The position numbers and the translations under genes are program-made. A stretch of DNA of 62,531 nt from assembly GCA_937138415.1 (NCBI GenBank), contig CAKZPA010000008.1, forward strand, positions 1 to 62,531, written 5' to 3'. Below are positions 17,622-24,586 of this stretch, piece after piece (positions within the stretch are counted from its first letter, which is position 1; each line of letters opens with the position of its first letter). The stretch comes from an uncultured Nitrospiraceae bacterium. Its GTDB lineage: Bacteria > Nitrospirota > Thermodesulfovibrionia > Thermodesulfovibrionales > SM23-35. Below the pieces are notes generated by a model. The model searched no databases and was not told where the DNA came from. It saw only the letters and a list, made by a program, of their open reading frames with translations.

Positions 17622-17696
17622 GCGGGCGTAACTCAGCGGTAGAGTGTCAGCTTCCCAAGCTGAAGGTCGCGGGTTCGAATCCCGTCGCCCGCTCCA
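17622..17696 (+). tRNA. tRNA-Gly, anticodon CCC
   Basis: A full cloverleaf can be folded by eye. The acceptor GCGGGCG (17622-17628) pairs with CGCCCGC (17686-17692); the anticodon stem TCAGC/GCTGA encloses the loop TTCCCAA, so the anticodon is CCC, reading GGG. The T arm has GGGTTCGAATCCC. The 3' CCA is encoded (17694-17696). It closely resembles glyU-type tRNAs. It stands alone, divergent from the CCA-adding enzyme gene. Confidence 0.96.
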
Positions 17697-19231: not shown

Positions 19232-19816
19232 CTACGACTGCTCTCGCCGGGTATTACCCCCTTTTCTCCACACATGATAAATCCGCTGCACAACGGTCAC
19301 ATGCGTGAAAAACAGCATGATCCATAGGATGGGTACAACCCATCCCGTGAGCGTCGCAACGATAAGGAGGATAATCCTCTCCGGTCTCTCCAAAATACCG
19401 ACGTGGCACGAGAGGCCGATGCCTTCCGCTCGCGCCCTCGTGTAGCTTACCAGAAAAGCCCCGACGAGGGTCCCGAGGCTGAGGAATGCCCCCTCATGAC
19501 CTTCGCGGACGGCGAGGTACCAGGCGAGCCCGAGGAAGAGCGAGGCGTCCGCATATCTATCGAGAACGGAGTCGAGAAAAGCCCCGAAGGACGTGACTCG
19601 ACCGGTCGTTCTCGCGACGACGCCGTCGAGCATGTCGCATAGACCGCCCATGACGATCAGCACGCCGCCGAGTTGTAAATGATGTGGGATGATGAAAGCC
19701 GCAGATACTGTAAACAGAAAGCCGAGAACGGTGAGGGCATTCGGACTGAACGGAATTCTCTTCGCGATACGGCTCAGCGGCGCGTCATATCGGTGACCGA
19801 GTTTCGCACTCAGCAT
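19232..19816 (-). CDS. CDP-alcohol phosphatidyltransferase, probably inositol-phosphate type
   Basis: Integral membrane enzyme of 194 residues that transfers a phosphatidyl-like group from a CDP-activated lipid or alcohol to an acceptor alcohol. The signature D-G-x2-A-R-x8-G-x3-D-x3-D is present as DGVVARTTGRVTSFGAFLD and onward (about 65-90), and several hydrophobic spans follow. Its start codon abuts the stop of the inositol-1-phosphate synthase gene, so inositol 1-phosphate is the likely acceptor. Products could be phosphatidylinositol phosphate or a di-myo-inositol phosphate precursor; the sequence does not decide. Confidence 0.85.
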   Translation of the reverse strand: MLSAKLGHRYDAPLSRIAKRIPFSPNALTVLGFLFTVSAAFIIPHHLQLGGVLIVMGGLCDMLDGVVARTTGRVTSFGAFLDSVLDRYADASLFLGLAWYLAVREGHEGAFLSLGTLVGAFLVSYTRARAEGIGLSCHVGILERPERIILLIVATLTGWVVPILWIMLFFTHVTVVQRIYHVWRKGGNTRREQS

Positions 19817-20920
19817 CTACCTCTCGAGTTTTCCTTGAATGAAGGCTTCCACCATCGACCGGGCTTTGTCTTCCGGAAACTGCACCATCGGATGTTTCAT
19901 GAAGTAGGCCGAGGGCGAGATGAGGACCCCCCCTACCCCCCGATCGCGCGCAATCTTGCAGCAACGGATTGCATCGATGACGACGCCCGCGCTGTTCGGA
20001 GAGTCTTCGACTGAGAGCCTCATTTCAAGATGGATCGGAATGTTGCCGAACCCGCGCCCCTCCATTCTGAGAAAACAGATCTTATTATCTTTGAGCCATG
20101 GCACATAATCGGACGGGCCGATGTGAATATGCTCATCTCCGATCCGGGCCTGCATCTGCGATTGCACCGCTTCCGTCTTCGAAATCTTTTTCGACGCGAC
20201 CCTCTTATGGTTTAACATGTTGAGAAAGTCGGTATTCCCTCCAACGTTCAACTGGTACGTGTTGTCGATCTTCACGCCACGGTCTTCGAACAATCTCGTC
20301 AACACTCTATGGATGATCGTCGCCCCGATCTGACTCTTGATGTCATCACCGATAATGGGAATCCCTTTTCGCTCGAACCTCCGAGCCCATATCTTGTCGG
20401 ACGCAATAAAAACGGGAACGCAATTGATGAAGCTGACCCCCGATTTGAGGCAGGCGTCCGCGTAGTACGCCGTCGCCTTCTCCGATCCCACCGGAAGGTA
20501 ACTGATGAGCATATCCGCTTCCGTCTGCTTCAGGACCCTGGCGACATCGCACGGCCTCCTTCTCGCGATAACGAACCGCCGCTCCTCCGGATAATTCTTC
20601 ATGTGCGACGAAACGCCGTCCAGAACAGGCCCCATCATGACCCTCACGGGGATGGTCGGAAGTGCGTCAATAATCGTCTTCGTGCAATTCGGCAAGGCAA
20701 ACACCGCTTCACTCAGAGGCCGGTCGATTTTCCGCTCGTCGATATCGAATGCCGCGACGAATTCGATGTCATCCGGCCGGTAGCCGCCGAGCGAATAGTG
20801 CATCAACCCCAACGACTTCTCCGGATGATCCTTGCGGAGAGATCCGTAGTACGCCACTCCCTGAATCAGGGAGCTCGCACAATTGCCGACGCCGGCCACT
20901 GCAACCCTGATCTTCCCCAT
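19817..20920 (-). CDS. myo-Inositol-1-phosphate synthase
   Basis: NAD-dependent isomerase that converts glucose 6-phosphate to 1L-myo-inositol 1-phosphate. The 367 residues start with the Rossmann motif [16 protein letters not shown], and contain [10 protein letters not shown]-like active-site strands (SFINCVPVF), [17 protein letters not shown] and [12 protein letters not shown], which are hallmarks of the short prokaryotic INO1 family. It sits between a DNA-binding protein gene (gap two bases) and the CDP-alcohol transferase gene (no gap), forming a three-gene operon for an inositol lipid or compatible solute. Confidence 0.93.
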
Positions 20921-20922
20921 CG

Positions 20923-21333
20923 TTACCGTTTTCCTCTCTGCTCGGAGAGCAGCCTCACGAGATCTTCCAGCCTTATATTGAAGTCCTTGAGCAACGAATC
21001 GAGCGACTCTTCACAGTAATCGAGAAAACGTTTCCAGATCCGGCGCACCGTATCCTTATCGAGATCCGAGGCGAATGCTGCCTCTCTCAAACTCAACCCC
21101 TTCAGGCGATAAAGGATGACCTCGCGGATCTTCGACTCGCGCGTGTGGAGACCGAAAAAAGCGGAATTTCTCCGTTCGGAAAAACGGGACTGGCACGTCC
21201 TGCATTTGAGCAATCTCCTGCCCGTCTTCCCGTACGTGTCGACGATGAGAATATTGCCGAGACCCCTTATCCCGTGATCACTGCATGCTTTGTTCGGACA
21301 GAAAAAGAGATCGCTTTCCGCGGAATAGCGCAT
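20923..21333 (-). CDS. Zinc-ribbon and helix-turn-helix protein, IS1 InsA-like
   Basis: Predicted DNA-binding protein of 136 residues. The N-terminal ribbon has [10 protein letters not shown] and [12 protein letters not shown], giving two Cys pairs for zinc, as in the InsA protein of IS1-type elements. A helix-turn-helix follows ([26 protein letters not shown], about residues 75-100, quoted in part only as LSLREAAFA and DKDTVRRIW). No DDE catalytic ORF or terminal inverted repeats accompany it, so it is not an active transposase. It leads the inositol operon with two bases to the next gene, so a local regulator is plausible. Start at 21333 preferred; an in-frame ATG at 21384 lacks similarity. 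Confidence 0.7.
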
Positions 21334-21405
21334 GCAGAGGTTATACCAAAGGCTGTCGAGAATGTCAAGACAGATAATCAACAAAATAGGGACATGTCAG
21401 CGTGC

Positions 21406-22488
21406 CTACGTACTCGCTTTTATGCCCAGCTTTCTGTAAAGTAGCGGGAAGTCGACGTGTTCCGTTATGATCTGCACGCCACGTTCGACTTTCGCCGTGT
21501 CGCGCAACCGTAGCCGGACAGAAAGTTTTTCCAATTTCTTCGCGATGCTGTACGTATCTTCCCGCACGACGAGAATGGGTACCTTCTTTTGCTCGGCCAC
21601 GGACACGATGATCTCGCTCGGGTAGAGGTCGCCGGTCAGGATGAGGCAGACCGAACCGGACTCGATGGCCGACAACTGAATATCGGACCTGTCCCCTCCT
21701 ACGATAACCGCGTTGTTCCTCGTTTTCCTGAAATACTCCATTGCTCGATCGACCTGCATCGCGCCGATGAGGAAGTGTTCGACGAGATTCGAGAGACGAT
21801 CGTTGCAACAGAGGACCTTCCCGCCGAGCATTTCACTCAATTCTTCGACCGTGATCGATCCGACAACCGAGTCATGCGGAATGATACCGAGGATATCGAT
21901 GTTTTTTCTCCGGAGGAAAGGAATGGTATAGTCGTACGCACTCTGCTTCAGATCCGACGGCACTTTATTGAGGATCACGCCGAGGCATCGCTCCTTCAGA
22001 TCTTTCCTGGCCTGCAGAATATAGTCGACGACGTACTGACCTTCGTACTTCACGACGAGAACAACTTTCGCGCCGAGCCGCTTGATCACATCGAGCCCCT
22101 GCACCCCGAGAAAGCTGCCGGTATAAATGCTCCCATAGCCACCGATCAGCATGATGTCCTTTCCGCGCGACACCCGCTCGAACGATCTCACGACCTTTGC
22201 GATCAGACCCTTCATTTCCTTCTGATAGCTCCTCACTTCGAGTTCCTGCGTCAGGACGATGGGGCAGATGTCCTCAAGCGGGTCCTTAAGGTCGAGGGCT
22301 CGGTAGACACGCCACGCGTCGTTATCCGTCAGTAGATCGTTCACCCTCACGGGCAGGATACCGACCGGTTTCATGTACCCAAGACGGAAACCGTCCCGCC
22401 TGAACGCAGTTCCCAAACCGATCGTGAGGAGCGTTTTTCCCGTATACCCCCCCGTCGAACCCACGTATAGTGTGACCATTTCACTCAC
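21406..22488 (-). CDS. Phosphotransacetylase-like P-loop protein with DRTGG domain
   Basis: Cytoplasmic protein of 360 residues in the COG0857 family. The N-terminal half is a BioD-like P-loop domain (GSTGGYTGKTLLTIGLG, about 10-26, then MKPVGI) and the C-terminal part is a DRTGG domain (about 215-325; VGGDRSDIQLSAIESG). The Pta catalytic domain itself is absent. Such proteins are found next to ADP-forming acetyl-CoA synthetase and are thought to regulate acyl-CoA/acyl-phosphate metabolism; a direct activity is unproven. It overlaps the end of the synthetase gene by eight bases, so coupling is likely. Confidence 0.82.
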   Translation of the reverse strand: MSEMVTLYVGSTGGYTGKTLLTIGLGTAFRRDGFRLGYMKPVGILPVRVNDLLTDNDAWRVYRALDLKDPLEDICPIVLTQELEVRSYQKEMKGLIAKVVRSFERVSRGKDIMLIGGYGSIYTGSFLGVQGLDVIKRLGAKVVLVVKYEGQYVVDYILQARKDLKERCLGVILNKVPSDLKQSAYDYTIPFLRRKNIDILGIIPHDSVVGSITVEELSEMLGGKVLCCNDRLSNLVEHFLIGAMQVDRAMEYFRKTRNNAVIVGGDRSDIQLSAIESGSVCLILTGDLYPSEIIVSVAEQKKVPILVVREDTYSIAKKLEKLSVRLRLRDTAKVERGVQIITEHVDFPLLYRKLGIKAST

Positions 22489-24586
22489 CTCCTATCAGAA
22501 ATCGTGCATCGATCGCAATGACGCCATGCCCCCGATCCCTCACGATGAGCGGATTGATGTCGGCTTCAACGATGTTCGGGAAATCCGTCGCCATCTGTGA
22601 CAGCTTCAGGAGGGAGTGCTCGATGGCCTCGATATCGGCTTCGGGCTCTCCCCGGACTCCGCGCAAGAGGGGGAACGCCTTCGTCTCCCTGATCATTTCG
22701 TGGGCGTCCTCGGTGCTGAGGGGTGCGATCCGAAATGAGACGTCTTTGAGGACCTCGACGTAAACGCCTCCAAGCCCGAACATGATGAGATGCCCGAACT
22801 GGGGATCACTCGTGATTCCCATGATCACCTCTTTCCCCCTCGGAACCATTTCCTGTATCAACACTCCGACAATGTGCGCAGTGGGCATGATATTCCTGAC
22901 CCTCGTCGTGATATCGAAGAATGCACGTTCAATGTCTTTCTTGGTGTTCAGGTTCACCCTGACCCCTCCGATATCGCTCTTGTGCATGATCTGCGGCGAA
23001 ATAATTTTCATCACGACGGGGAACCCGATTCCTTTTGCCGCCGCAACCGCCTCGTCCGACGTTCTCGCAACCAGACTTTTCGGCTGCGCGAACCCGTACG
23101 CCCGGAGAACATCGTGCACCTCCAGATCGTTCAGTCGGTCGCGATTCTCCTTTTGCGCCTCCGCAAAAACCCGCTCCGCTTTTCTCCTGCAGTCCTCGAA
23201 CGTCTGCATACGCTTTGCGGGTTTGTGCCGCCACACGTGATACCGGTACATTGCATTGAGCGATGCGACCATTTCTTCGGGATAATCGTAGTTCGGGATG
23301 CCGTGCTTGAGGAGCGTCTTCGCACTCCCTTCGACACTCTTCTTCCCCATGAATGAGGTGAGCACCGGCCGGTCGAGCGCATTGGCGACCCTGATCACCG
23401 CCTGGGCAGTCGCCGCGACATCGACGACGGCAGTCGGCGTAAGGAGGACCATCACGCTGTTGATCCTCTCATCTTTCAGGACGGTCTGCAGCGTTCGTTC
23501 GTACCGATCGCTGCCCGCATCGCCGAGGATATCGATGGGATTATAGAAAGACGCCACCGGTGGCAAAAACGAGCGCAGTTCATCCACGTACTCCTTATGG
23601 AGCGGAATCAACTGGAGGTTCGATTTGTCGCACGCGTCAGCGGCGAGGATGCCGGGGCCGCCCGAATTGGTGATGATCGCCGCATTCGGACCGCGGGGGA
23701 CCGGCTGGTGAGCGAACGCGATCGCAAAATTGAAGAGCTCGTTGATCGTATGCGCTCTAATGACACCGCTCTGTTTGAAGGCAGCATCGAACGCTGCCTC
23801 TCGACCCGAGAGGGCACCGGTGTGAGATGACGCAGCCTTCGCTCCCGACGTCGTGATCCCCGACTTGAGAATGATCACCGGCTTCTTCTGCGACACGAGA
23901 CTCGCAACTTCCATGAACTTCCTTCCGTCAGCGACACCCTCTACGTACCCGAGGATCACTTTCGTATTATCGTCTTCGGCCAGGGCGAGCATGATATCGG
24001 TATCGGTGAGATCCGCCTTATTGCCCATGCTGATGAACTTGGAGAAACCGATTTCGTCCGGGAGCGCCCGGTCCAAAACCGCGAGACAGAGGGCGCCGGA
24101 TTGAGAGAAAAAACCGATGCCGCCCTGCACGGGCATGCCCGCAGCAAACGACGCATTGATCATCGCGTGCGTATCGATGATGCCGAGGCAGTTCGGTCCG
24201 ATAAATCGCACACCGGCCTGCTTCGCCCTTTTCACGAGTTCCTGTTCCAGGCGCGATCCCTCGAGGCCGCTCTCCTTGAACCCGGCCGTGATGATGACAG
24301 CCGCGTCGATTTTCCTTTCGCCGCACTGGTCGATCACGGCGAGGACGTGTTTTGGCGGCACGACGATGATCGCCAAGTCGATGTCGTGGGGTACGCTTGA
24401 GAGAGAGGGATATGCTTTCTTCCCGAGAATCTCCGATGCCTCGGAATTGATGGGAAAGACGGCTCCCGCATAGCCATACCGTGTGATGTTCTTCAGGATA
24501 TCGTGACCGACTTTTCCCGGACTCCGGGACGCGCCGACGACCGCAATGGACCGCGGACGAAAAAAATGGTCGAGCATCTGTCTCAC
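22481..24586 (-). CDS. Acetate-CoA ligase (ADP-forming), fused alpha and beta
   Basis: Interconverts acetyl-CoA, ADP and phosphate with acetate, CoA and ATP, conserving energy when run toward acetate. The 701 residues fuse a CoA-binding domain (about 1-130), a succinyl-CoA-ligase-like domain (about 140-450) and an ATP-grasp domain (about 480-700). The phospho-histidine lies in ASSHTGALSG and the glutamate-bearing ATP-grasp motifs appear near GGVRVNL and FGLGGVYVE. Substrate range may include other acyl-CoAs. Together with its DRTGG neighbour and pyruvate phosphate dikinase it fits fermentative or acetate-linked energy metabolism. Confidence 0.92.
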   Translation of the reverse strand: MRQMLDHFFRPRSIAVVGASRSPGKVGHDILKNITRYGYAGAVFPINSEASEILGKKAYPSLSSVPHDIDLAIIVVPPKHVLAVIDQCGERKIDAAVIITAGFKESGLEGSRLEQELVKRAKQAGVRFIGPNCLGIIDTHAMINASFAAGMPVQGGIGFFSQSGALCLAVLDRALPDEIGFSKFISMGNKADLTDTDIMLALAEDDNTKVILGYVEGVADGRKFMEVASLVSQKKPVIILKSGITTSGAKAASSHTGALSGREAAFDAAFKQSGVIRAHTINELFNFAIAFAHQPVPRGPNAAIITNSGGPGILAADACDKSNLQLIPLHKEYVDELRSFLPPVASFYNPIDILGDAGSDRYERTLQTVLKDERINSVMVLLTPTAVVDVAATAQAVIRVANALDRPVLTSFMGKKSVEGSAKTLLKHGIPNYDYPEEMVASLNAMYRYHVWRHKPAKRMQTFEDCRRKAERVFAEAQKENRDRLNDLEVHDVLRAYGFAQPKSLVARTSDEAVAAAKGIGFPVVMKIISPQIMHKSDIGGVRVNLNTKKDIERAFFDITTRVRNIMPTAHIVGVLIQEMVPRGKEVIMGITSDPQFGHLIMFGLGGVYVEVLKDVSFRIAPLSTEDAHEMIRETKAFPLLRGVRGEPEADIEAIEHSLLKLSQMATDFPNIVEADINPLIVRDRGHGVIAIDARFLIGGE

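Follow-up and report, generated by a model that had tools for sequence, protein, structure and literature searches.

A transposon-descended zinc-ribbon protein that appears to be a private switch for inositol-lipid genes in one bacterial group

What does a small protein resembling part of a transposase do at the head of an inositol operon, and does it regulate the genes behind it? The question is raised by a gene in a 62,531-nt stretch of bacterial DNA (the whole of this stretch is called the window here), which the first-pass annotation had described as InsA-like and possibly domesticated as a regulator of inositol lipid or di-inositol phosphate synthesis.

ZnR and its operon

The open reading frame, its minus-strand orientation and its coordinates were all right, and the gene (ZnR) is real. 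It heads an operon, as had been proposed, with a gap of two bases between ZnR and INO1, and with INO1 and PIPS abutting without a gap:

20923 to 21333, minus strand: ZnR, a 136-aa zinc-ribbon plus helix-turn-helix protein
19817 to 20920, minus strand: INO1, myo-inositol-1-phosphate synthase (PF01658, E 3e-37)
19232 to 19816, minus strand: PIPS, a CDP-alcohol transferase nearest to phosphatidyl-/archaetidyl-inositol phosphate synthases (PF01066, E 3e-17)

The stop codon of ZnR ends at 20923; an alternative frame with a TTG start reaches 21384, and the conserved start is the ATG at 21333. The zinc-ribbon cysteines are arranged in two pairs (C12-x4-C17 ... C44-x2-C47), and all four are present in 33 of the 34 aligned ZnR proteins, the remaining one being truncated at a contig end. 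An AlphaFold model of moderate confidence (pLDDT 67.7, 5 sequences) places strands before helices 66-77, 82-88 and 93-109, the helix-turn-helix occupying about residues 66-109. No significant fold match was found in the PDB (best E 0.15, with HTH-like pieces among the first rows), and the PDB sequence search gave no convincing match (best E 0.056).

Resemblance to InsA was weak in profile searches (NCBIfam IS1, 12.8 bits, E 0.085; Pfam HTH_28, E 4e-5 and 23.9 bits, just below the gathering score of 25) and clearer by tblastn against plasmids, in which nine records were matched at 29-37% identity. Five of these plasmid proteins were scanned, and in four a DDE_Tnp_IS1 match lies behind the ZnR-like part (three at or above the gathering score, one just under; tblastn E 8e-10 to 4e-5). 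The best tblastn match (E 7e-13) is a 144-aa protein of Deinococcus peraridilitoris without DDE_Tnp_IS1. The likeness to the IS1 family is confined to the N-terminal, DNA-binding half of the transposases.

The locus itself lacks a catalytic frame and element ends, as had been noted at first sight: ZnR has no DDE match, INO1 follows 2 bp on, and no terminal inverted repeats were found, the only inverted repeat flanking ZnR within 20400-22000 being a 12-nt pair (1311 nt apart) that looks like chance. Further copies between inverted repeats, which the first-pass annotation had named as evidence against its reading, are absent from this genome, in which ZnR is single (the sole other match has E 0.075). 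At the thresholds used, each of 35 genomes gave a single match, so the gene does not qualify as mobile; it adjoins INO1 or PIPS in 34 of the 35 (the exception is a fragment) and no whole copy was seen elsewhere. No relatives were found on phages by tblastn, nor in IMG/VR by a close-relative scan.

ZnR is under purifying selection. The dN/dS values (ratios of YN00 values, obtained for 6 of 8 pairs) are about 0.03, 0.10, 0.14, 0.16, 0.06 and 0.10, with dS > 1 in the last pair. Distances between ZnR proteins, which are noisy because ZnR is short, follow those of INO1 (r 0.71, 32 loci; r 0.56 for the 20 loci inside the window's family) and PIPS (r 0.79, 32 loci), and in each of the three comparisons none of 5000 permutations gave as high a value. 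Single copy number, the missing catalytic half, low dN/dS, distances tracking those of INO1 and PIPS, and a retained gene order together make domestication of ZnR from the DNA-binding half of a transposase well supported.

For the product of the operon, the first-pass annotation had left two options, of which inositol lipid is preferred to di-inositol phosphate because PIPS is nearer to the lipid-forming phosphatidylinositol phosphate synthases than to di-inositol-phosphate phosphate synthases. The 194-aa protein scores 169.3 bits with the archaetidylinositol phosphate synthase model (cut-off 180) and 150.2 with that of phosphatidylinositol phosphate synthase (cut-off 170), matches only positions 250-419 of the model of the Thermococcales di-inositol-phosphate phosphate synthase, and is too short for the cytidylyltransferase half fused in that enzyme. 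INO1 scores 448 bits against TIGR03450, below the cut-off of 638.

Immediately upstream of ZnR (window 21406-24586, minus strand), two genes encode an AAA_26/DRTGG protein and a protein resembling acyl-CoA synthetases, with CoA-binding, Succ_CoA_lig and ATP-grasp domains. In the window's family, 17 of 20 loci have the DRTGG gene in front of ZnR. At its gathering threshold, Rfam matched the window only at a tRNA gene (17622-17693, plus strand).

Distribution, linkage and loss among relatives

Among 101 genomes (the source genome and 100 relatives; ZnR threshold E <= 0.001), INO1 was identified in 85 and ZnR in 28, all of which have INO1; within the window's family, ZnR occurs in every one of the 20 genomes. 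Since 57 of the 85 INO1-bearing genomes lack ZnR, it is dispensable to the operon. Order-wide, ZnR was found in 31 of 176 genomes, one of these copies (G157) being a broken fragment with stops, and four more, 45-51% identical and belonging to other orders of the class, came from 295 genomes sampled across the phylum. This gives 34 whole copies and one fragment, one per genome.

The three-gene order is conserved, as the first-pass annotation had asked to be checked. INO1 follows ZnR on the same strand in 32 of the 35 loci, with 362-1133 bp from the start of the ZnR match to its own start, and PIPS follows in 33, which makes PIPS the most constant partner. Where INO1 is not downstream, the locus is either the G157 fragment or one of two (G027, G034) in which ZnR directly precedes PIPS and INO1 is on a different contig; PIPS was missed once at a contig end and once at the G157 fragment, for which the available 418 bp hold neither gene. 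The G157 fragment follows a DRTGG gene, an arrangement also seen in family f1, and may stem from contamination (5% in the G157 genome). In G027 and G034 the unlinked INO1 (L091, L092) has a second, more distant PIPS-like gene downstream (31 and 38% identity to the PIPS of the window).

An Hsp20 gene lies between ZnR and INO1 in 6 of the 35 ZnR loci and directly upstream of INO1 in 10 of the 31 ZnR-less loci examined (from the 57 such genomes). The loci with this Hsp20-INO1 arrangement, with or without ZnR, are L067, L076, L086, L087, L089 and L156, and L094, L097, L099, L100, L102, L103, L105, L106, L108 and L112. This small heat-shock gene beside INO1 points to a possible link of inositol lipid synthesis to heat or envelope stress.

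Relatives that have the operon and lack ZnR had been named beforehand as evidence against the first-pass reading. Such relatives are common (the 57 genomes above), yet in family f2 the absence is visibly secondary. In G087 (L101) the element described below, the promoter and the first and last ZnR codons remain and, judged by eye, the middle is missing; in G043 (L095), and less clearly in G052 (L093), only scraps of the ZnR 3' end are left between tRNA-Pro(GGG) and INO1, the interval in which G155 (L161) of the same family carries an intact ZnR. Family f2 therefore once had ZnR, and no fewer than two distinct deletions removed it. In other families a core promoter like that of ZnR stands without the gene.

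A 17-bp element at the ZnR promoter

The first-pass annotation had suggested a search for a binding motif upstream of 21333, and a conserved candidate operator was found at ZnR promoters. In the window, the promoter region comprises:

21378 to 21394, minus strand: 17-bp element TGTCCCTATTTTGTTGA, candidate ZnR operator (consensus TGTCCCCAYTTNATTGA)
21363 to 21368, minus strand: -35 box TTGACA
21340 to 21345, minus strand: -10 box TATAAC, after a 17-nt spacer and 6 nt before the ATG

The ZnR mRNA is accordingly predicted to be leaderless or nearly so. This promoter escaped a promoter scan that requires T as the final base of the -10 box.

The element stands upstream of the -35 box in all 34 ZnR loci with upstream sequence (including the G157 fragment and leaving out G006, in which the contig begins within ZnR). 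From the element to TTGAC[AT] there are 7-10 nt in 33 of the 34; in G034 the element is about 12 bp closer. In the alignment, which was anchored on the GTCCC core and from which no locus was dropped for want of that core, the element columns hold 0.6-2.3 bits and the 20 columns upstream at most 0.42 bits (background), while the downstream flank is AT-rich as far as the -35 box. The element is an asymmetric, single site; its T at position 7 in the window is unique among the 34 loci.

As a control, 33 INO1 loci not led by ZnR were used (31 in genomes lacking ZnR, plus the INO1 loci of G027 and G034 that are not linked to ZnR). A core promoter (TTGAC[AT], 15-19 nt, TATA[AT]) was present within 700 bp upstream of INO1 in 23 of these (one or two may belong to other genes), compared to 1 of 33 in reversed sequence. 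Just upstream of these 23 promoters the element was found once, in the deletion relic G087, with 16 of 17 positions; the next best locus (L118) has 12 of 17. The element and the ZnR gene are absent together. In L107, L109, L113, L114, L116, L117 and L118 a ZnR-like core promoter without the element lies 70-84 bp upstream of INO1.

Matches elsewhere in the genomes were sought with two patterns. The strict 17-bp pattern, run on 57 genomes (28 with ZnR, 29 without), hit the ZnR promoter in 23 of the 28 and other places three times in the ZnR-bearing and three times in the ZnR-less genomes, with six hits of the reversed control over all 57. A composite of element and -35 box, run on 68 genomes (34 with ZnR, G006 being left out, and 34 without), found 32 of the 34 ZnR promoters, with 16 matches at other places in the genomes with ZnR and 14 in those without (reversed control, 52 and 42). 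In both scans G094 yielded one additional match sharing the same 32 bases as its own site, which looks like a contig-end duplicate. There is one element site per genome, at ZnR's own promoter. A wide ZnR regulon was considered and rejected, as matches elsewhere do not rise above the level of ZnR-less genomes and reversed controls.

Proposed regulation and its alternatives

The conserved, private element at its own promoter supports the earlier suggestion that ZnR may regulate the inositol operon. We think it probable, by a clear but not a wide measure, that the domesticated InsA-like protein binds the 17-bp element and autoregulates the inositol-lipid operon. ZnR would then be the zinc-ribbon and HTH half of an IS1-family transposase, which the host has retained to regulate transcription at a single target; it would bind the asymmetric TGTCCCCAYTTNATTGA 7-10 nt upstream of its own -35 box and set the output of the ZnR-(Hsp20)-INO1-PIPS operon, which makes inositol phosphate and transfers it to lipid. 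ZnR as the reader of the element, autoregulation as the effect, and the sign of this effect are what we infer from the genomic pattern.

It is unlikely that an unlinked regulator (e.g., a stress regulator) reads the element and that ZnR does something else. Conservation of a site does not by itself identify the protein that binds it, and Hsp20 accompanies INO1 with and without ZnR (6 of 35 and 10 of 31 loci); however, loci without ZnR also lack the element (the one exception among the 23 like promoters is the ZnR relic), it occurs in none of the ZnR-less Hsp20-INO1 loci that have such a promoter, and the lack of above-background sites elsewhere would be odd for a shared regulator.

ZnR might instead act in trans as a nucleoid-associated or global factor on many genes, its place in the operon being incidental. 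Its basic zinc-ribbon/HTH character and transposase ancestry would fit, but the background-level matches away from ZnR, in comparison with ZnR-less genomes and the reversed control, and the failure to find any whole copy apart from PIPS or INO1 make this improbable. Zinc ribbons are able to bind RNA or protein, and the -10 box is only 6 nt from the ATG, which would suit a post-transcriptional regulator that binds its own near-leaderless mRNA or its partners INO1 and PIPS; this is just as improbable, as transcription from the promoter would not include the conserved island, which is upstream of it. That ZnR is a functionless transposase fragment hitch-hiking in the operon, as its patchy occurrence in the order (31 of 176) and the deletion scars in family f2 might suggest, can hardly be reconciled with dN/dS of about 0.03-0.16, four cysteines kept in 33 of 34 proteins, presence throughout the 20 genomes of the window's family and a conserved promoter element.

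If ZnR is the reader of the element, the direction of its effect is nearly balanced, with a slight lean to InsA-like autorepression over activation. The lean to repression comes from the near-consensus core promoter, which is of the same kind in relatives without ZnR and suggests that ZnR would modulate rather than enable transcription; activation is argued for by the location of the element upstream of the -35 box at nearly fixed spacing, which is also where the sites of IpsA (see below) are found at the genes that it activates.

The closest known parallel may be InsA of IS1, which with the IS1 promoter forms an autorepression system in the available text of PMC12428005. Both proteins combine a zinc finger and HTH without DDE, and ZnR shares homology with the N-terminal half of transposases of the IS1 type; action at the promoter of its own operon, as described for InsA there, would be shared by ZnR. 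Unlike IS1, the ZnR locus has no inverted repeats that we could find, no insB and no sign of mobility; it is followed by inositol-lipid genes, and the site is a single asymmetric element dissimilar to the ends of the related plasmid elements examined. It is doubtful that the element is a relic of an ancestral transposon end, the whole IS1-type InsA circuit (repressor, promoter and bound end) having been captured in an ancestor of this class of Nitrospirota and since retained to switch phosphatidylinositol-type lipid synthesis from one site; the ends of the related plasmid IS1-type elements (GGGGTAGTTAGGTGAGATTATC-like) do not resemble the 17-bp element.

In function, ZnR would be comparable to IpsA of Corynebacteriales, which, according to the available text of PMC3899939, regulates ino1 and inositol-lipid synthesis, with sites upstream of -35 at activated genes (the position of the ZnR element) and overlapping -35 or -10 at repressed ones. 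As described there, IpsA differs in being an unrelated, LacI-type protein with a palindromic site, several targets and myo-inositol as effector. Inositol-phosphate synthase and PIP synthase also share one cluster in Bacteroides thetaiotaomicron (BT_1522-1526), for which the available text of PMC9246714 mentions no ZnR and lists further genes, one of them for the transfer of inositol to ceramide.

A full-text literature search gave, in the titles and abstract openings among the matches listed, no description of a ZnR-like protein or of the 17-bp element, and IpsA was the only dedicated regulator of a bacterial inositol-phosphate synthase among those matches. If the proposed reading is true, ZnR would be a second, unrelated regulator of INO1, built from the DNA-binding half of a transposase. 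Its predicted operator is precise, so protein and site are directly testable, and the natural ZnR deletions in family f2 are ready-made comparisons.
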